DNA from: Oscillospiraceae bacterium
GTDB taxonomy: Bacteria; Bacillota; Clostridia; Oscillospirales; CAG-272
Direction of reading: 5' to 3'
Length of the DNA: 46,305 nucleotides
NCBI GenBank assembly: GCA_015064555.1
Contig: SVRZ01000020.1
Span: forward strand, 1 to 46,305
Below the pieces are notes generated by a model. It did no database searches. It worked only from the letters and a program-made list of their open reading frames with translations, and was not told where the DNA came from. Made by a program: the position numbers and the translations under genes. How positions within the stretch are numbered: position 1 is the first letter of the stretch; the number at the start of each line of letters is the position of its first letter. This document shows, piece after piece, positions 1-42,400 of this stretch.

Positions 1-104
1 ACTTCGCCCTTTTCCATCGATTTGAGTTCTTTTTTCTCCGGCATTGGGTCGCCCGGATACACTTGGCAGCCGAAAACTTCTTGGGAAATATCGTAGATTT
101 TCAT
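1..104 (-). CDS. Cyclase-family protein, N-terminal fragment
   Basis: Only the first 34 codons lie in the window; the gene runs off the left edge. The start is MKIYDISQEVFGCQVYPGDP, which resembles the opening of the cyclase / kynurenine-formamidase-like family: an early hydrophobic strand, then a 'YPGDP' segment that in the family leads to a metal-binding His-rich motif. That motif would lie outside the window. The ATG at 104 is preceded by GGAG at a good distance, and a consensus promoter lies just upstream. The substrate cannot be predicted; the family includes metal-dependent hydrolases acting on formylkynurenine and related amides. Confidence 0.6.
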   Translation of the reverse strand, partial: MKIYDISQEVFGCQVYPGDPMPEKKELKSMEKGE

Positions 105-143
105 TACTTATTCTCCGTCAAATTCTGGATTTTCGGTGAGTTT

Positions 144-172
144 ATTATAGCATAATATCTAACTAAAATCAA
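144..172 (-). promoter_or_regulatory. SigA-type promoter for the cyclase-family gene
   Basis: Read on the minus strand: TTGATT (172-167), a 17-base spacer, then TATAAT (149-144). It lies 40 bases upstream of the ATG at 104. A degenerate copy of the same sequence recurs near 621-650, ahead of the second hairpin-repeat copy. Confidence 0.7.
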
Positions 173-196
173 GGAGTATCTTCGGTAATTCAATAA

Positions 197-243
197 TTGA
201 ACGATACCCCATAAATTGAACGAAAGGGGTATAAAGTGAACGA
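197..243 (+). repeat. Three iteron-like TGAACGA repeats with a TACCCC/GGGGTA inverted pair
   Basis: TTGAACGA occurs at 197-204 and 216-223, and GTGAACGA at 236-243, at 19- to 20-base spacing. TACCCC (205-210) and GGGGTA (226-231) form an inverted pair around the middle copy. The arrangement could be a regulator binding site upstream of the cyclase-gene promoter or the remnant of a mobile-element end. No gene is visible here. Confidence 0.4.
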
Positions 244-286: not shown

Positions 287-411
287 CACTTTCGTAGAAA
301 GTGTATATCATCAATTTCGCAGAAATTGTATATCATCAATGCAAAGCATTGTATATCATCATTACGGAGTTTAATACACGCTAAAGCGTGATGATATGCA
401 AAAAAGAGCGA
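287..411. repeat. Hairpin array, copy 1 (tRNA-Leu side)
   Basis: A string of small perfect palindromes separated by the 8-base linker TATATCAT (ATGATATA on the other strand). They are CACTTTC-GTA-GAAAGTG (287-303), CAATTTC-GCA-GAAATTG (312-328), CAATGC-AAA-GCATTG (337-351), a decayed CATTAC unit, and CACGC-TAAA-GCGTG (378-391). Bases 303-411 are repeated almost exactly at 657-766. The stems differ completely in sequence while linker and loop size stay fixed. The same family forms the larger array at 19431-19903. Confidence 0.85.
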
Positions 412-620
412 CTATCGATTGATAGTAACCCTGGGGACGGGAATTTGCCGCGCGGGACTCTGCTTTGATCGAATTAATTTGTTTGCGCAAGGTAATGCTT
501 GGGATCTCCGCGCTGGCAATATACCGCCGCAGGCGGTATGTGCACCCGATTCGCGCCCGAGCAATAGTGCGAGCAAAGAGAGGTTGCCAAACAGGGGCGG
601 AAGATTAAGAGAAAGTGCAT
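412..620. other. GC-rich insert between two hairpin-array copies, no gene seen
   Basis: This stretch of about 210 bases is clearly richer in G+C than its surroundings and separates two near-identical hairpin-array copies. It opens with the palindrome CTATC-GATT-GATAG and contains ATACCGCC-GCA-GGCGGTAT near 520-540. Reading frames of 67 and 71 codons exist on both strands, but neither has a ribosome-binding site or recognisable protein features. I read it as an intergenic repeat or element remnant of unknown type. Confidence 0.5.
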
Positions 621-656
621 AGCACAAAATCTAACTTAAATCAAGGCGTAAGCCTT

Positions 657-840
657 GTATATCATCAATTTCGCAGAAATTGTATATCATCAATGCAAAG
701 CATTGTATATCATCATTACGGAGTTTTTATACACGCTAAAGCGTGATGATATGCAAAAAAGAGCGATTTTCTCGCTCTTTTTGATGATATCCACCACACT
801 TCGTGCGGTGATGATATACCATTACTCCGTAATGGATAAA
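657..840. repeat. Hairpin array, copy 2, directly downstream of tRNA-Leu(GAG)
   Basis: Bases 657-766 repeat 303-411. The copy is preceded by CAAGGC-GTAA-GCCTTG and followed by a terminator-like hairpin (755-782), a mismatched CACCACAC-TTC-GTGCGGTG unit, and CATTAC-TCC-GTAATG. Linkers are TATATCAT or ATGATATA. In the direction of tRNA transcription the array begins immediately after the tRNA terminator. The unit CAAGGC-NNAA-GCCTTG, linker, CAATTTC-GCA-GAAATTG is shared with the array beside the other tRNA-Leu at about 19743-19780. Confidence 0.85.
755..782. terminator. Bidirectional hairpin with A and T flanks
   Basis: AAAAAGAGCGA, a short loop, then TCGCTCTTTTT. This is a terminator-shaped palindrome inside the hairpin array. 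In copy 1 the same left arm is present but the right arm is missing because the GC-rich segment begins there. Confidence 0.6.
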
Positions 841-870
841 AAAAGTCGTATCAAAATGATACGACTTTTT
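840..870 (-). terminator. Intrinsic terminator of tRNA-Leu(GAG)
   Basis: On the minus strand AAAGTCGTATCA, a TTT loop, then TGATACGACTTTTTTT. A 12-bp stem followed by a U-run, starting right after the tRNA CCA end. Confidence 0.9.
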
Positions 871-954
871 TGGTGCGGGAGACGGGAATTGAACCCGTAC
901 GGTAAAACCACACGCCCCTCAAACGTGCGCGTCTGCCAGTTCCGCCACTCCCGC
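871..954 (-). tRNA. tRNA-Leu(GAG)
   Basis: Folds as a class II tRNA of 84 nt with the CCA encoded (TGG at 871-873 on the plus strand). The acceptor stem GCGGGAG pairs with CTCCCGC. The D-arm contains GGCAGACGC. The anticodon loop is TTGAGGG, giving anticodon GAG, which decodes CUC/CUU leucine codons. A long variable arm and a GGTTCAATTCC T-loop are present. Confidence 0.95.
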
Positions 955-9717: not shown

Positions 9718-12234
9718 ATGAAAAGCAGATTATCCACTGTACTTATAATTCTGGTTGTTTTTGCAGCATTTTTCGTCATGTTCTGGTTTTTGATACCGAA
9801 GCTAAGAGACAGAAATGACGGTAATACCGATTCCGGCATTACCGATGGGGATAATGCGGATACGGGCGATACAGGCGATACCGATGATTCGGGCAATGAT
9901 ATCCAATACACCCTCCCTGTCATAGGTGAGAATGGAAATTGGTGGATAGATGGTAAGGATACCGGAATTTCCGCTCTCGGTCAGAAGGGGCAGGACGGAG
10001 AAGACGGTGCTCCCGGTAAAGACGGCGCTCCGGGTAAAGACGGAGAGAACGGTAAGGATGGTAAGGACGGTGATGACGGTCTTACTCCCTATATCGGCGA
10101 GAACGGCAATTGGTGGATCGGAGATACCGATACCAAGGTTTCTGCCGCAGGTAAGGACGGCGCTCCGGGCGAGGATGGAGAAGACGGCGCTCCCGGTGAA
10201 GACGGCGCTCCGGGAAAAGACGGTCTTACACCTTATATTGGAGAAAACGGCAACTGGTGGATAGGCGATACCGACACCAAGGTTTCTGCGGGCGGCTCAT
10301 CCGGCGCAGGCAGTGAGAATGGCAAGGACGGTCTTACTCCCCATATCGGAGAAAACGGCAATTGGTGGATAGGTGAGACCGATACCGAGGTTCCCGTCAC
10401 GGGAAATGACGGTGAGGACGGTCTTACACCATATATTGGAGAGAACGGCAATTGGTGGATAGGCGATACCGATACCAAGGTTTCCGCCACAGGTAAGGAT
10501 GGTGCACCGGGAAAGGATGGACTTACACCTTATATAGGTGAGAATGGCAACTGGTGGATAGGCGATACCGATACTAAGGTTTCCGCTACCGGTAAGGACG
10601 GTACACCGGGTAAGGATGGACTCACTCCCTATATCGGAGAGAACGGCAATTGGTGGATAGGTGATACCGACACCAAGGTTTCGGTTTCGGGTAAGGACGG
10701 TCATGCAGGTTCTGACGGCAGAGGAATACTCAAGGCAGAGATAAAGAACGGATATCTTTACATAACATATACGGATGCACCCGATTCTCCCGTAAATCTG
10801 GGCAAGGTCGTCTCCGACGGTGACTCATCGGGCTCTGGAGGTGTGATCAACGTGGAATCGCTTGATTTTTATCCGCTCCCGGACGGAACGTACGGTGTAA
10901 CGGCAGGTGATCTTCTTTATCTTGATGAGATAACGGTTCCCGAGGAATACAACGGCAAAAAGGTAACAGCCGTTTTGCCGGGTGCCTTTGAAAATGCTTT
11001 TAATCTCAAGAGGATAACTCTCCCGGAAAGCATTACCACGATATACGACAAAGCGTTTATGGATTGTGCGCTTCTTTCGGAAATTTTCTTTGGAGAAAAT
11101 ACGGATATTCCCCTGACTGTAGTTAAGATAGGCGATGACGTATTTTCAGGATGCGAGTCATTAACCGTCGTATGCGAGGCGGCATCAAGACCTGAAGGAT
11201 GGTCCGAGCATTTCGCAGGCGGATGCACCGTAATATGGCGCGGAGCCGAGGAATCCGAGGGCACCGAATTTGATTGGGAAATATCGGGTGATCACGCGAT
11301 AATCAAGAGCTATAAGGGAAATTCCGATACCGTTGTAATTCCGGACAGCCTCGGCGGATATCCCGTGACCGAAATAAAGAGCGGTGCATTCAAGGATCGG
11401 ATCGATATATTTGCGGTAACGGTAGGTAAAAACGTAGCTTCAATAGGTGATTCGGCTTTCTCCGGATGCTACAGGCTCGTTGAGATATATAATTTGTCGG
11501 ATCTTGAGATAGTAGAGACCTCCGAGAATAACGGCGGAATAGCGGCGAATGCCATGAGTGTACATACCGATATTTCCGAGGAAAGCATCCTTACGGAAAA
11601 TGATGGTATCATCTTTGCGGGCAGTACTGCAGTCGGTTACGTGGGCGAAGGTGAAAAGCTCACTCTGCCCGATACCGTAGGAGGCAGCAGATATTACGTT
11701 CGTGAATACGCATTCTTCGGTCTTGATATAACCGAGCTTGTTATAGGTAAGGGCGTCAGATCTATAGGCAGATATGCATTTGCCGAATGTCTTTCGCTTG
11801 AAAGTATTGAATTTAATGCCGAGGAGTGCTCAGGAACGGTCGATGCCTTCAAAAATGCGGGCAGGAGCACCGAGGGAATAACTCTCGTTATAGGCGATAG
11901 CGTCAGCTATCTTGCATCCGATCTTTTCCATGCATCGGAGGGAAATGTCGCTCCGAATATAACCGTTCTTGATATGACGGCGGCTCTCGCTTGCACAACG
12001 GTTGATACAAGCGCATTTGAAAACTGCATATACCTTGAGCAGATCACTATTTCAGCGTCTGTGATCGCTATTATGGAAAATGCATTCTCCGGATGCTCTG
12101 CGCTCGGCTCCGCGGTGATAAAGGGCTCGGGCAGCTGGAATGCCGGAGGTATTCCTGTTATCGAAAGCGATCCCGAAAAGCTCGCAGAGTACCTTCGCGA
12201 AACGTATGCATCCTTCGCCTGGACGCGAGCCTGA
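9718..12234 (+). CDS. Surface protein: collagen-like / GENGNWWIG repeats plus BspA-type leucine-rich repeats
   Basis: 838 residues, AGGAGG before the ATG. Residues about 8-27 are a membrane anchor and 30-62 an acidic Thr/Asp/Gly linker. Residues 64-340 contain seven copies of a module centred on IGENGNWWIGDTDTKVSA, alternating with collagen-like Gly-X-Y runs (APGKDG, GEDGAPG). From about residue 385 to the end there are BspA/LRR_5-type leucine-rich repeats (GAFENAFNLKRITLP, AFSGCYRLVEIY). No sortase motif is seen. This is likely a stalk-and-head protein displayed from the membrane, with a binding role inferred from LRR_5 families. Repeat DNA is highly similar and may vary in copy number. The next gene's ribosome site overlaps its stop codon. 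Confidence 0.88.
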   Translation: MKSRLSTVLIILVVFAAFFVMFWFLIPKLRDRNDGNTDSGITDGDNADTGDTGDTDDSGNDIQYTLPVIGENGNWWIDGKDTGISALGQKGQDGEDGAPGKDGAPGKDGENGKDGKDGDDGLTPYIGENGNWWIGDTDTKVSAAGKDGAPGEDGEDGAPGEDGAPGKDGLTPYIGENGNWWIGDTDTKVSAGGSSGAGSENGKDGLTPHIGENGNWWIGETDTEVPVTGNDGEDGLTPYIGENGNWWIGDTDTKVSATGKDGAPGKDGLTPYIGENGNWWIGDTDTKVSATGKDGTPGKDGLTPYIGENGNWWIGDTDTKVSVSGKDGHAGSDGRGILKAEIKNGYLYITYTDAPDSPVNLGKVVSDGDSSGSGGVINVESLDFYPLPDGTYGVTAGDLLYLDEITVPEEYNGKKVTAVLPGAFENAFNLKRITLPESITTIYDKAFMDCALLSEIFFGENTDIPLTVVKIGDDVFSGCESLTVVCEAASRPEGWSEHFAGGCTVIWRGAEESEGTEFDWEISGDHAIIKSYKGNSDTVVIPDSLGGYPVTEIKSGAFKDRIDIFAVTVGKNVASIGDSAFSGCYRLVEIYNLSDLEIVETSENNGGIAANAMSVHTDISEESILTENDGIIFAGSTAVGYVGEGEKLTLPDTVGGSRYYVREYAFFGLDITELVIGKGVRSIGRYAFAECLSLESIEFNAEECSGTVDAFKNAGRSTEGITLVIGDSVSYLASDLFHASEGNVAPNITVLDMTAALACTTVDTSAFENCIYLEQITISASVIAIMENAFSGCSALGSAVIKGSGSWNAGGIPVIESDPEKLAEYLRETYASFAWTRA

Positions 12235-19430: not shown

Positions 19431-19903
19431 CGGCGCTTTGCGGTGATGATATACACCTTCGGTGATGATATACAGCCCAAAGGGCTGATGATATACACCT
19501 TCGGTGATGATATACAGCCCAAAGGGCTGATGATATACACCTTCGGTGATGATATACAGCCCAAAGGGCTGATGATATACGCCTGCGGCGATGATATACA
19601 GCCCAAAGGGCTGATGATATACGCCTGCGGCGATGATATACAGCCCCAAGGGCTGATGATATACACCTTCGGTGATGATATACAGCCCAAAGGACTGATG
19701 ATATACAACCTCTGGTTGATATCACAAAATCAAAACAAAATCAAGGCGAAAGCCTTGTATATCATCAATTTCGCAGAAATTGCATATCATCCGTCCGAAA
19801 ACGAGTATATCTCGCTTTCGGGCGAGTATATCATCAAGTCGCAGAGGAATACACCTTCGGTGATGATATACATTCAATGATATACCAAGTCTGCGACTTG
19901 GAT
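19431..19903. repeat. Large array of variable hairpins with the constant linker GATGATATAC
   Basis: About 18 small hairpins in a row, each followed by ATGATATA. The most common pair is CACC-TTC-GGTG and CAGCCC-AAA-GGGCTG, which with two linkers makes a 42-base unit repeated several times. Other units are CGCC-TGC-GGCG, CAGCCC-CAA-GGGCTG, CAACC-TCT-GGTTG, CAAGGC-GAAA-GCCTTG, CAATTTC-GCA-GAAATTG and CCAAGTC-TGC-GACTTGG. The orientation of the linker flips to TATATCAT in the part near the tRNA gene. Stem arms always match each other although units differ, loops are nearly always three bases, and the array ends at the terminator of tRNA-Leu(CAA). Several frames are open across it only because the unit length is a multiple of three. 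Confidence 0.92.
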
Positions 19904-19943
19904 AAAAAATGCTGCAGAAAAAATACATTTTCTGCAGCATTTT
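19904..19943 (-). terminator. Intrinsic terminator of tRNA-Leu(CAA)
   Basis: On the minus strand AAAATGCTGCAGAAAA, a short loop, then TTTTCTGCAGCATTTTTT. It starts directly after the CCA end. Confidence 0.9.
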
Positions 19944-20030
19944 TGGTGCCGGTGGCGGGGGTCGAACCCGCACGTTCTTGCGAACACGGGATTTTGAGTC
20001 CCGGGCGTCTGCCAATTCCACCACACCGGC
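19944..20030 (-). tRNA. tRNA-Leu(CAA)
   Basis: A class II tRNA of 87 nt with encoded CCA. The acceptor stem GCCGGTG pairs with CACCGGC, the D-arm is GGCAGACGC, and the anticodon loop CTCAAAA gives CAA for UUG codons. The long variable arm is TGTTCGCAAGAACG and the T-loop GGTTCGACCCC. Confidence 0.95.
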
Positions 20031-26552: not shown

Positions 26553-26561
26553 TGATTGATT

Positions 26562-26766
26562 TTCCTGCGAGGTGCGTGATATGGCATATTTGGACCTACA
26601 CACACATTAAGGGAGCTTGGGCTTCGGTTGACGGGATGCAGGCCTCCCGTATATCGGCGAATTTTCCCCTTTATACGGACGTTGGAAGCGCAAAGCAATC
26701 GAGAGAGCACCCACCTGTACAAGCAGGGTTAAACTCTGCTATACACGGCCTATGCGGGTTTTTTAT
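26562..26766 (+). ncRNA. ssrS: Probable 6S RNA
   Basis: A 205-base non-coding segment whose ends pair to a closing stem (CCTGCG near 26564 with TGCGGG near 26752), then a T-run (GGGTTTTTT). It has long imperfect arms on both sides of an open centre. Segments such as GGACCTACA, TTAAGGGAGCTTGGG and GAGCACCCACCTG are what I associate with Clostridia 6S RNA, which binds SigA-RNA polymerase as a promoter mimic. A possible promoter TTGACT (26533-26538) overlaps the end of the DUF1292 gene, with a poor -10. Processing from the upstream transcript is an alternative. Confidence 0.68.
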
Positions 26767-30900: not shown

Positions 30901-30976
30901 GCTGGTGTGGCTCAGTTGGTAGAGCAGTTGATTCGTAATCAACAGGTCACCGGTTCAAGTCCGGTCACCAGCTCCA
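30901..30976 (+). tRNA. tRNA-Thr(CGT)
   Basis: A class I tRNA of 76 nt with encoded CCA. Acceptor GCTGGTG pairs with CACCAGC. The D-arm is GCTCAGTTGGTAGAGC, and the anticodon loop TTCGTAA gives CGT for ACG codons. The T-arm is CACCGGTTCAAGTCCGGTG-like. Confidence 0.95.
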
Positions 30977-30978
30977 GT

Positions 30979-31008
30979 AAAAGAGAGAACTTCGGTTTTC
31001 TCTTTTTT
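30979..31008 (+). terminator. Intrinsic terminator of tRNA-Thr, repeated in the array behind it
   Basis: AAAAGAGAGAA, loop CTTCGG, TTTTCTCTTTTTT. The same hairpin recurs in every 164-base unit of the following array. Confidence 0.9.
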
Positions 31009-31697
31009 CTTTTGTTTTGGGGTGTCCGGGGACCTGGGATTACGCATCAAAGTATCGCATTCGCGATACGATTCGTAATTTGCCGCGCAAGGCGGCAATG
31101 TAGCACCAGGATCACCGGTTCAAGTCCGGTCACCGGCTCCGGTAAAAGAGAGAACTTCGGTTTTCTCTTTTTCTTTTGTTTTGGGTGTCCGGGGACCTGG
31201 GATTACGCATCAAAGTATCGCATCCGCGATACGATTCGTAATTTGCCGCGCAAGGCGGCAATGTAGCACCAGGATCACCGGTTCAAGTCCGGTCACCGGC
31301 TCCGGTAAAAGAGAGAACTTCGGTTTTCTCTTTTTCTTTTGTTTTGGGGTGCCCGGGGACCTGGGATTACGCATCAAAGTATCGCATCCGCGATACGATT
31401 CGTAATTTGCCGCGCAAGGCGGCAATGTAGCACCAGGATCACCGGTTCAAGTCCGGTCACCAGCTCCAGTAAAAGAGAGAACTTCGGTTTTCTCTTTTTC
31501 TTTTGTTTTGGGGTGTCCGGGGACCTGGGATTACGCATCAAAGTATCGCATTCGCGATACGATTCGTAATTTGCCGCGCAAGGCGGCAATGTAGCACCAG
31601 GATCACCGGTTCAAGTCCGGTCACCGGCTCCGGTAAAAGAGAGAACTTCGGTTTTCTCTTTTTCTTTTGTTTCGGGGTACCCGGGGACCCGGGGAAT
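30979..31697 (+). repeat. Tandem 164-bp repeats containing tRNA-Thr fragments
   Basis: Four full units and a truncated fifth follow tRNA-Thr. The T-arm motif CGGTTCAAGTCCGGT recurs at 30951 (the real tRNA), 31116, 31279, 31443 and 31607. Each unit has the terminator hairpin, a spacer GGGGTGTCCGGGGACCTGGG, a hairpin GTATCGC-ATTC-GCGATAC enclosed by ATTACG/CGTAAT, the anticodon-loop piece GATTCGTAAT, a hairpin TTGCCGC-GCAAG-GCGGCAA, and then the 3' third of the tRNA. Units differ at only a few bases, some of which match the real tRNA (CAGCTCCA in the third copy). The D-arm and 5' acceptor strand are missing, so these are not working tRNA genes. Confidence 0.93.
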
Positions 31698-39400: not shown

Positions 39401-42400
39401 AGCTTTATGAAATCCGAAGAGATAAGACTGTCTACCGTATATCCTGTGGGATTGCTTAAGGTTACGAGAAGGTTTATCTTTTCTGAGGGGAATACCCACG
39501 AGCCGTTCTCAAATACCTCAAAATCCTCATTTACGTACTCGACGGAAAGAACGTCAACTCTTCCGTTGATGAATACGTTATCAGCAATTTCGCTTACGGG
39601 CTTGACCGAGAGAGAGGTGCTGTCGATCCTTGCATTCAGGCTATCCACCTTAAGGTAGGTATCTCCGCCTCCGAATTGTCCTTTGTAGACGATATCAACC
39701 GATATCTGAGTATTTGAGGACTGACTTACACTGTAGGTCTCGCCGTTGATAACAACAGATTCAACAGTCATACCAAGGGGGTTATCGAGCTTGACTGACA
39801 TAACTATTGTGTCGCCCTCGGAAACCGCAGAGGTATTTCTTATCTTGCATTCGGTAACGTCGATATAGGGAAGCGTCTTATAGCTCTTATCAGATGTTGC
39901 CGTTTGCTCACCGTTACCGTCGTGCAGGTCATAGCTGAAGGTGAATCTCACCGTGTAACCGGTATAGTAGGAGAGGGAAGAGAAGTCGATTTTCTTATCC
40001 GTTCCTTCCTTTATAAGAGTATCGCCCTGATAAAGCTCAACCTTGTAGGAGGAAAGAATACCGTCCGCATCGGTGATATCGTAGTCTGCCTTGATGCTGT
40101 CGGGAGTTATGCTTTCATTCTTTACAGTGAAGGTGGGCACAGCCTTAGCCACGGTCTTCGCGGTAAGCTCCTTGGTAAGAGTCTGCGCACCGTTTCCATC
40201 ATTAAGATCGTATGAATAAGTAACCCTTACTGTGTACGCGTTGTCGGAAAGAAGATCTTTAATCTGAAGCGAGGTGAGCTTTTCAAGCTCCTTTACTACC
40301 TCGCCGCCGTGAATAAGCTCGATCTTGGTAATTGAACCTACCTTGTCGGTATCGGTAACGCTTACCGTGAAATCAAGATTATCCTGTCCCTTTGCGGTGT
40401 TCGTAATAATAAAGCTTGGTGCTGCTTTGGAAAGAGTAGTGATAACAAGCTCTTCGGTAACGGTTTTGTCGCCTGTGCCGTCGTTAAGGTTATAGACGTA
40501 TGTGACCTTAACGGTATAGGCATTGTTTGAGAGAAGTCCTGCGAATGCTCTCTGATCAAGAGAATCGGCAACTATCGTGCCATTCTTGTGAACAAGCTCT
40601 ATCTTTGTAACCGTGCCGACGTTATCCTTGTCGCTCTCGGTAATATTGAAGCCGAGAGAGGTCTGCGTCTTTTCGGGGGCATTTACCGAAATTTCGGGTA
40701 CAGCCTTAGCGTCCGTCTTAGCGGTGATCTCCTTTGTGATAGTCTGTGTACCCTTACCGTCATTAAGATCGTAGGTGTAAGTGACTCTGAGTATGTACTC
40801 ATTATCCGAGAGAAGATCGGTGATCTTATGAGAGGTAAGATTTCCGAGGATAGTAATCACCTCACCGCGAATAAGCTCAACCTTTGTTATTGCACCAACC
40901 TTATCGGTATCGGTAACGCTTACCGTGAAATCAAGGCTATCCTGTCCCTTTGCGGTATTGGTCATGCTGATTTCGGGCACGGTCCTGGCATCCGTCTTCG
41001 CGGCAAGCTCTTTCGTAAGAGTTTTTGCACCCATGCCGTCATTCAGATCATAGGTGTACGTAACTCTTACCGTGTATTCATTGTCTGAAAGAAGATCGGT
41101 TAACTTGTGAGAGGTGAGCTTTTCAAGCTCCTTTACTACCTCACCGCCGTGAATAAGCTCAACCTTGGTAATAGCACCTACCTTGTCGGTATCGGTAACG
41201 CCTATAGAGAAATCAAGGCTATCCTGTCCCTTTGAGGTATTTGTAATATTAAAATCGGGCGTTTCCTTTGCAAGCGTGTTTATGGCAAGCTCGCACGTTA
41301 TCGTCTTATCTCCCGTACCGTCGTTAAGATTATAAACGTATGTCACCCTGACGGTGTAGGTATTGTTGGAAAGAAGATTTTCAAATGCTCTCTGCTCGGT
41401 CGATTGCGCCGTAACGGTGCCGCTCTTATGAAGGAGCTCTATTTTCGCAATCGCGCCTATGCTATCGGCATCATTTTCGAAGATGCCGAAGCTTACACCA
41501 GTCTTGGTCGCATTCGGCGTATCAAGCGATATCTCAGGCACAGCCTTTGGCAGGGTATTTACGTATATCTCTCTTACGATTGATTGAGTGCCTCTGCCAT
41601 TGTTGAGATCGTAGGTGTAGGTAATTCTTACCGTATAAGTATTATCCGAAAGAAGTCCCGAAAATTCTCTTGTACCGGTACTGTCGGCAGTGATATTTCC
41701 ATTTGCATGGATAAGCTCTATCTTTGCAAGCTCGCCGACGTTATCCTCGTCGCTTTCGGTGACGGCAAATCCGATGCTCGTCTGCGTGGAGGATGGAGTA
41801 TGCACCGAAATTTCGGGCATGGTCTTAGGATAGGTTTGTATGTCTGCCGTTCTCTCAACGTATTCGATTCCGTTTCCTTCGTTGAGATCGTATGCATAGA
41901 TCACCTTAACGGTGTAACAGGTATCCGAGAGGATTCCTGAGAATCCCTTGCAGCCGGCATCGGTAGAATAGGTAACGACGTCGCCGTCCTTAATAAGCTC
42001 AATGCGCTCGATACGACCGATCTCGTTTACGTCAACTATACCGAGGGTAAAGCTTACCGAGTCCTTTGTTCTGTCGGTGCTCTCAAAGATCACGCTCGGC
42101 TTTGCCATAGCGGTAGTCCTTATCCTGATATCTCTTTGCTCGGTCTTGTCGCCGTTGCCGTCACCGAGGTTGTAAACGTAGGTGACCTTGACCGTGTATT
42201 CGGTATTCGAGAGCAGTCCTTGGAACTCTCTTACCTCGGTGTCAGACGCCGTACTGACAAGTCTTTCTCCAAGATAGAGCTCGATTTTTGTGATACTGCC
42301 TATATTGCTTGTATCGCTTTCCTCTATGCTGAAGCCTACCGAGGTCACCGTCTGAGTGCCGCCGGATATGTTGATATAAGGAATATTATTTTCCTTGGTT

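Follow-up and report, generated by a model that had tools for sequence, protein, structure and literature searches.

The hairpin array at positions 19431–19903 of the window, a stretch of 46,305 nucleotides from an Oscillospiraceae bacterium (contig SVRZ01000020.1), is composite: most of it is an expansion of a 42-bp dimer, which is joined to a true symmetric unit of about 150 bp. Hairpin arrays of this kind, found in uncultured gut bacteria just past tRNA and housekeeping genes, belong with the Gut-1 RNA motif (RF01706), which the window's own array resembles weakly, and they are probably the cis-structures of very small (~0.2–0.8 kb), target-specific mobile elements that form one family. By the same probable explanation, and jointly with it, the window array would be a tRNA-end element that has grown because two of its hairpins expanded in tandem. 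Overall, the class of motif is known and its context is new; the mobile-element reading is plausible but unproven.

Architecture and distribution of the hairpin unit

The complete form of the unit in the window is element B (642–865, minus strand), anchored at the tRNA-Leu(GAG) gene (871–954, minus strand; ARAGORN) and comprising, on the minus strand, hairpins H0 (845–865), H1 (819–835), H2 (792–810), H3 (754–783), H4 (732–745), antiH1 (714–724), H5 (691–705), H6 (666–682) and H7 (642–657). Element A is anchored at the tRNA-Leu(CAA) gene (19944–20030, minus strand; ARAGORN and Rfam). A terminator-like hairpin with A/T flanks, H0 (19910–19939, minus strand), leads from the tRNA CCA to the element; related H0 stems were recognised elsewhere by reading. 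It is followed on the minus strand by H1 (19885–19901), of the form CC-AAGTC-GCA-GACTT-GG and located after TTTTTTAT, and by the remainder of the element (19742–19862), which contains H4 (CACCGAAGGTG), antiH1 (19835–19845), H5 (19792–19826), H6 (19766–19782), H7 (19742–19757) and linkers, while H2 and H3 have shrunk to TGAATG. Element C (287–400, minus strand) is a truncated copy of the A/B-type unit, with H4 (377–390), antiH1 (360–370), H5 (337–351), H6 (312–328) and a different H7.

Read from the tRNA, the unit begins with CCA, an A-run, H0, a T-run, ATCC and H1, and continues through linkers with H2–H4, antiH1, and inverted linkers with H5–H7 to GATT. The antiH1 sequence is an inverted recurrence of the 5' arm and loop of H1. 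Duplicate loci (L017, L036–L044, L187) were dropped. From 144 H1-like candidates, 70 oriented elements were kept whose antiH1 is properly spaced and measures at least 7 nt, GCAA-type H6 hairpins having been removed. These elements have several H1 sequences, including AAGCCGCAG, ATTGCGAAAG, AAGTCGCAG, ATTACGGAG, AAACCGCAG and AAGCCGACAG, each with its own matching copy. A common order, three TATATCAT linkers and then three ATGATATA, was found in 33 of the 70 with at most two mismatches. The single invariant linker of the preliminary description does not hold, as in the unit at 19742–19903, and equally in its relatives, the linker reads TATATCAT in one half and ATGATATA in the second, and variants such as CATATCAT, GATGAGATAC and GGATATCATC are present.

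The rest of the array is of another kind. At 19444–19707 (no strand assigned; Tandem Repeats Finder), two hairpins with two linkers, CACC-TTC-GGTG and CAGCCC-AAA-GGGCTG, form the 42-bp dimer, tandemly expanded to 6.3 copies with 95% matches. The earlier characterisation of the array as the opposite of an ordinary tandem repeat therefore fails for this part; what stands of that view is that pairing is kept as arms vary.

Other repeats were observed in the window. Behind H7 of some units (window 1–240, L003, L004), TTGAACGA/GTTCACTT words are repeated around a GGGGTAT-ATACCCC hairpin; this shared stretch is perhaps an operator or a further element end. At 30901–31693, a tRNA-Thr(CGT) gene precedes a tandem array of a 164-bp unit (4.6 copies); every copy has the 3' part of the tRNA, a terminator-like hairpin and more hairpins, and the array looks like tandem copies of another tRNA-end element. 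A 6S RNA is located at 26559–26764 (74.6 bits), and 99- and 282-bp tandem repeats, at 10324–10701 and 40750–41378, fall within long open frames.

The H1 motif TTTTTATCC-N9-16-GGYATATCAT occurs at 68 sites in 22 of the 59 relatives, and its reversed control at none. The two-linker pattern was found in 21 of the 59 and in one of 398 genomes of a phylum sample, that one being the own genome, where linker GATGATATAC has 47 copies; the pattern is thus widespread both in this genome and among relatives. A contig-wide scan yielded at least 118 stretches with the pattern, and among the 80 matches listed the labels were mostly ruminant-gut Clostridia. By reading, H0 stems reappear alongside the unit at various tRNAs. 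Among 410 alignments spanning the unit, 40 start within 5 nt of the CCA and 108 only at the H0 T-run, so H0 seems to be co-transferred with some copies but not all. After H7, TTGATT, 17 nt and TATAAT are often found by reading (L031, L077, L094, L101, L114 and others), and a similar leader precedes unrelated genes.

Hairpin pairing and the relationship to Gut-1 RNA

Hairpins spaced by a constant linker, as first described, are real: ATGATATA is present in 29 copies in the window against 3.3 expected from shuffles, and a short-looped stem of 4 bp or more occupies 417 of 499 intervals (9–25 nt) that separate consecutive same-orientation linkers, compared with 17 of 499 random windows. In all counts, 24 viral-contig stretches matching the pattern were excluded. 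Perfect arms of at least 3 bp were found in 418 of 535 inter-linker intervals, representing 215 distinct hairpins and 90 distinct arms. Arm covariation, proposed earlier as a check, is evident: the fraction of paired stem positions in distinct hairpins is 0.916, while reshuffling the 3' arms among hairpins of the same position and length gives 0.741 (maximum of 200 reshufflings, 0.772). A de novo scan detected 114 runs of at least four hairpins, against none in 292,582 shuffled bases, and revealed further linkers (ATTCCATA, CGATAT, GTGAAAT and others).

It is extremely improbable that the arrays are a functionless product of neutral slippage and quasi-palindrome correction. The expansion of the 42-bp dimer is slippage-like, and template switching can perfect hairpin arms, but such a process leaves unexplained the invariant linker, the loop classes and the H1/antiH1 copies, as well as the association with tRNA and PF05635 genes.

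Three-base loops, previously reported as nearly universal, are indeed the most frequent, but 4-nt loops are frequent too. Read in the TATATCAT direction, the loops are mostly of the GNA type with C-G closing pairs, and this is mirrored in the second half of the unit: unique hairpins have 29 GNA loops and one TNC loop in half 1 (n = 108), against no GNA and 34 TNC in half 2 (n = 91). GNA loops are stable in DNA. The mirror symmetry of the loops between halves suggests a function exerted by the DNA itself or on both strands.

In the Rfam search at the family's own threshold, the window array had no match; its ATGATATA array scored 25.6 and 24.4 bits against Gut-1 (E-values 0.011 and 0.021), below the cut-off of 50. 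Among 20 loci tested, sister arrays at L253, L256, L263 and L447 exceeded the cut-off, as did L159 separately. The earlier statement that no named family has this design is thus overturned for the sister arrays, which are Rfam Gut-1, the window array itself remaining below threshold. Gut-1 matches were found in 46 of the 59 relatives, 38 over the cut-off, with 25 matches in genome G000; in 14 control genomes, a match was found in E. coli only, below the cut-off. By reading, the best 20 Gut-1 loci share the array layout; 6 have a tRNA within 200 bp and one has a PF05635 gene within 600 bp. Like the sister arrays, Gut-1 is a three-hairpin array with a repeated short linker behind a boundary hairpin; the available part of its published description, based on human gut samples, differs in making no mention of the tRNA, gene-end or PF05635 context (PMC2864571).

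An unlikely alternative is that the array is transcribed, by read-through from the tRNA or from its own promoter, and acts as a structured noncoding RNA. The available text of the 2010 paper ranks Gut-1 with the likeliest expressed noncoding RNAs, treating its structure as certain and a cis-regulatory role as improbable (PMC2864571), and stem mismatches on the tRNA-sense strand lean towards G-T in half 1 (15 versus 4 A-C). However, half 2 has no such lean (G-T 7, A-C 9), the unit is located behind a terminator, and both loop polarities occur among the arrays of PF05635 genes (three all GNA, 11 all TNC and two mixed, with 6.2 mixed expected). The mirror-symmetric loop classes in particular weaken a reading as one transcript.

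Gene-end placement and the PF05635 companion gene

Of the oriented elements, 63 have 200 bp or more of upstream sequence; in 41 of these a tRNA gene on the same strand lies within 150 bp upstream, typically at a distance of 36–50 nt. The anchors span eleven amino-acid types, which rules out a site specific to one tRNA type. Most proteins encoded downstream are unrelated to one another; among the 60, the largest cluster has four members.

The syntenic tRNA-Leu(CAA) site was compared at 24 loci by reading. Window-type elements are present in G000 and G456, decayed copies in G457 and G470, a truncated copy in G015, and arrays with other linkers in G014, G016 and G463; none was recognisable in the rest. 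Automatic flagging at this site gave six runs, including L203, which has no linker by reading, and missing L211. Independent decay of units, named in the preliminary description as evidence against a selected or spreading system, is therefore partly seen here, and the two decayed copies and one truncated copy fit old insertions.

Some arrays are followed by a gene for a protein of 114–118 aa belonging to PF05635 (74.6 and 64.1 bits, Pfam cut-off 33.8; E-values 8.5e-21 and 1.5e-17). Five solved chains were matched, the closest being 2rld_A (9.3e-23). In the accessible part of PMC10053308, PF05635 is likened to the DGR protein Avd. Listed matches to the family numbered 128, in 47 of the 59 relatives; 110 were examined, 99 of them with at least 350 nt upstream, and 28 loci were dropped from the locus set. 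A run of at least three hairpins is located upstream of 52 of 99 PF05635 genes, compared with 9 of 85 downstream and 2 of 99 in shuffled sequence, and a tRNA within 600 nt upstream of 38 of 99, against 0 of 99 in the mirrored control. PF05635 genes outside the order had neither a hairpin run (0/28) nor a tRNA (0/28).

The linker differs by PF05635 subfamily (ATGATATA, TATGTAAT, ATTCCATA, ATATCGC, ATATCAC, TGAATT, GATGAAATC, GTTATAT and others). Linker and protein similarity correlate (r 0.49; 5000 permutations gave at most 0.18), and the nearest protein in another genome has the same linker in 38 of 47 cases, against 8.7 expected. The correlation is lost in distant pairs (r 0.09, p 0.08) and so demonstrates co-inheritance of linker and subfamily rather than binding. 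From the array side, the start-motif search found an intact PF05635 gene within 1.5 kb of 7 of the 70 oriented elements and a broken one at three more; no PF05635 gene adjoins the window arrays (tblastn, one query). Within 1.2 kb downstream of PF05635 there was no recombinase, transposase or recurrent partner gene, and so no integrase gene such as a tyrosine-integrase element would carry.

A non-mobile binding array, serving as a PF05635 operator or as a gyrase or nucleoid-protein site of the sort proposed for BIMEs behind strongly transcribed genes, is quite improbable. Both the location behind tRNA genes and the arrays upstream of PF05635, with a linker shared by the protein subfamily, are in keeping with it; against it, most copies have no adjoining PF05635 gene, a double-stranded operator has no need of palindromic spacers, the anchors are many different genes, and copies decay. 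REP/BIME sequences also consist of short, repeated, intergenic inverted-pair hairpins, but here the linker is conserved and the arms are not. The Y1/RAYT transposase suggested as a possible partner shows no association: of the same-genus genomes, 17 have arrays and 19 do not, and Y1_Tnp occurs in 4 and 5 of them, respectively; it is absent from G000. The spacers, palindromic and common to several loci, are unlike those of CRISPR. CIMEs, integron attC and CTX phage attP offer further comparisons.

The companion protein, as a PF05635 member, recalls the Avd-like bundle of 23S rRNA IVPs; these PF05635 genes, in contrast, are located behind tRNA, guaA and rlmD. No rRNA match was present in the window or in 16 related loci scanned, which excludes placement by 23S insertion at these loci, and no reverse transcriptase cluster was found next to the PF05635 genes.

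Target-end copies and probable element mobility

An rlmD-type gene precedes thirteen PF05635 loci and guaA precedes five, the gene families being confirmed. The 53 usable guaA loci were sorted by their number of linker words. A stop-codon hairpin scoring at least 7 was found at none of the 27 loci lacking such words, at 2 of the 6 having a single word and at 11 of the 20 having more; one of 53 shuffled sequences reached this score. At four loci the hairpin arms include the last guaA codons and their inverted copy: at L383, L384 (own genome) and L431 they extend 14 to 16 nt into the gene end, and at L420 9 nt. The hairpins of L369 and L425 look like decayed versions of this arrangement. Other guaA hairpins start at or just past the stop codon; as this applies to most strong guaA H0 hairpins, codons are copied in only the four intact ones. 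At rlmD, a hairpin score of at least 7 was reached by 15 of the 18 array-bearing loci and by 3 of the 10 array-less ones; the shuffle control (18/30) is uninformative there. The rlmD hairpin lies inside the coding end, with arms that are changed yet matching. Formation of palindromes at a fixed target, one of the mechanisms first envisaged, has a counterpart in these inverted gene-end copies in the first hairpins of guaA and rlmD loci, but the target is the gene 3' end, not the linker.

By reading, array-less guaA loci (L365, L366, L430, L434 and others) carry repeated TGGCAACA or GTACACG words behind guaA, resembling arm-type integrase sites, and a Phage_integrase open frame is located beside guaA in one relative (L361). 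According to the available part of a study of streptococci, the 3' ends of tRNA and guaA genes are tyrosine-integrase sites and rumA is a serine-integrase site (PMC4701971). The insertion sites are like those of integrative elements at tRNA and guaA 3' ends, but here the unit is below 1 kb, lacks an integrase and rarely has far-end repeats. Literature searches limited to PMC-licensed papers found no description of the hairpin-array element system and no named system into which the inverted copies of target gene ends could be placed.

The tRNA's own 3' end is repeated downstream in 5 of 46 elements, against 0.42 expected. One of the five is in the window: AATTCCCGTC (436–445, minus strand), a 10-nt repeat of the tRNA-Leu(GAG) 3' region, is a candidate far-end (attR-like) remnant, and its score of 10 was not attained with any of 45 other tRNA ends. 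Two of the five repeats (L136, L160) also lie within longer local duplications. A far-end repeat was found at one of 39 PF05635 loci with a tRNA (L300, 22 nt), and at guaA there were three weak matches, none convincing. Canonical att repeats are thus not the rule, and the classical attL/attR picture holds in part only. From a folded single-strand site, little if any repeat would be expected, and for this reason a single-strand reading was retained. No filled/empty-site pair was found among near-identical genomes. The eleven tRNA types, the decayed copies at a shared site and the few flanking tRNA-end repeats lead us to infer that the elements move.

In the mobile-element explanation, a copy immediately follows a tRNA or housekeeping gene on its 3' side. 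It comprises the boundary hairpin H0 and a hairpin array with a family-specific linker; some copies add a promoter and one gene for a PF05635 four-helix bundle, while many are array-only. The hairpins may act as folded DNA, PF05635 may bind the linker together with the hairpin, and a recombinase from another source could join H0 to the target. More tentatively, and on the unlikely side, these could be minimal single-strand-DNA elements integrating by mimicry, with H0 as a foldable copy of the target 3' end that replaces a double-stranded target, an Avd-like protein that reads linker and hairpin, and a borrowed recombinase. H0 would then be tailored to tRNA, guaA, rlmD and other gene ends, by analogy with integron attC and CTX-phage attP.

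The association gives Gut-1, an orphan RNA motif, and PF05635, a functionally uncharacterised protein family related to the DGR cofactor Avd, a shared and testable genomic home. If integration by mimicry is true, Gut-1 would be the hairpin array of an element family and not a free-standing noncoding RNA. If the inverted target-end copies are att-like hairpins, these would be mobile elements of less than 1 kb that carry a mimic of their target and borrow the enzyme.
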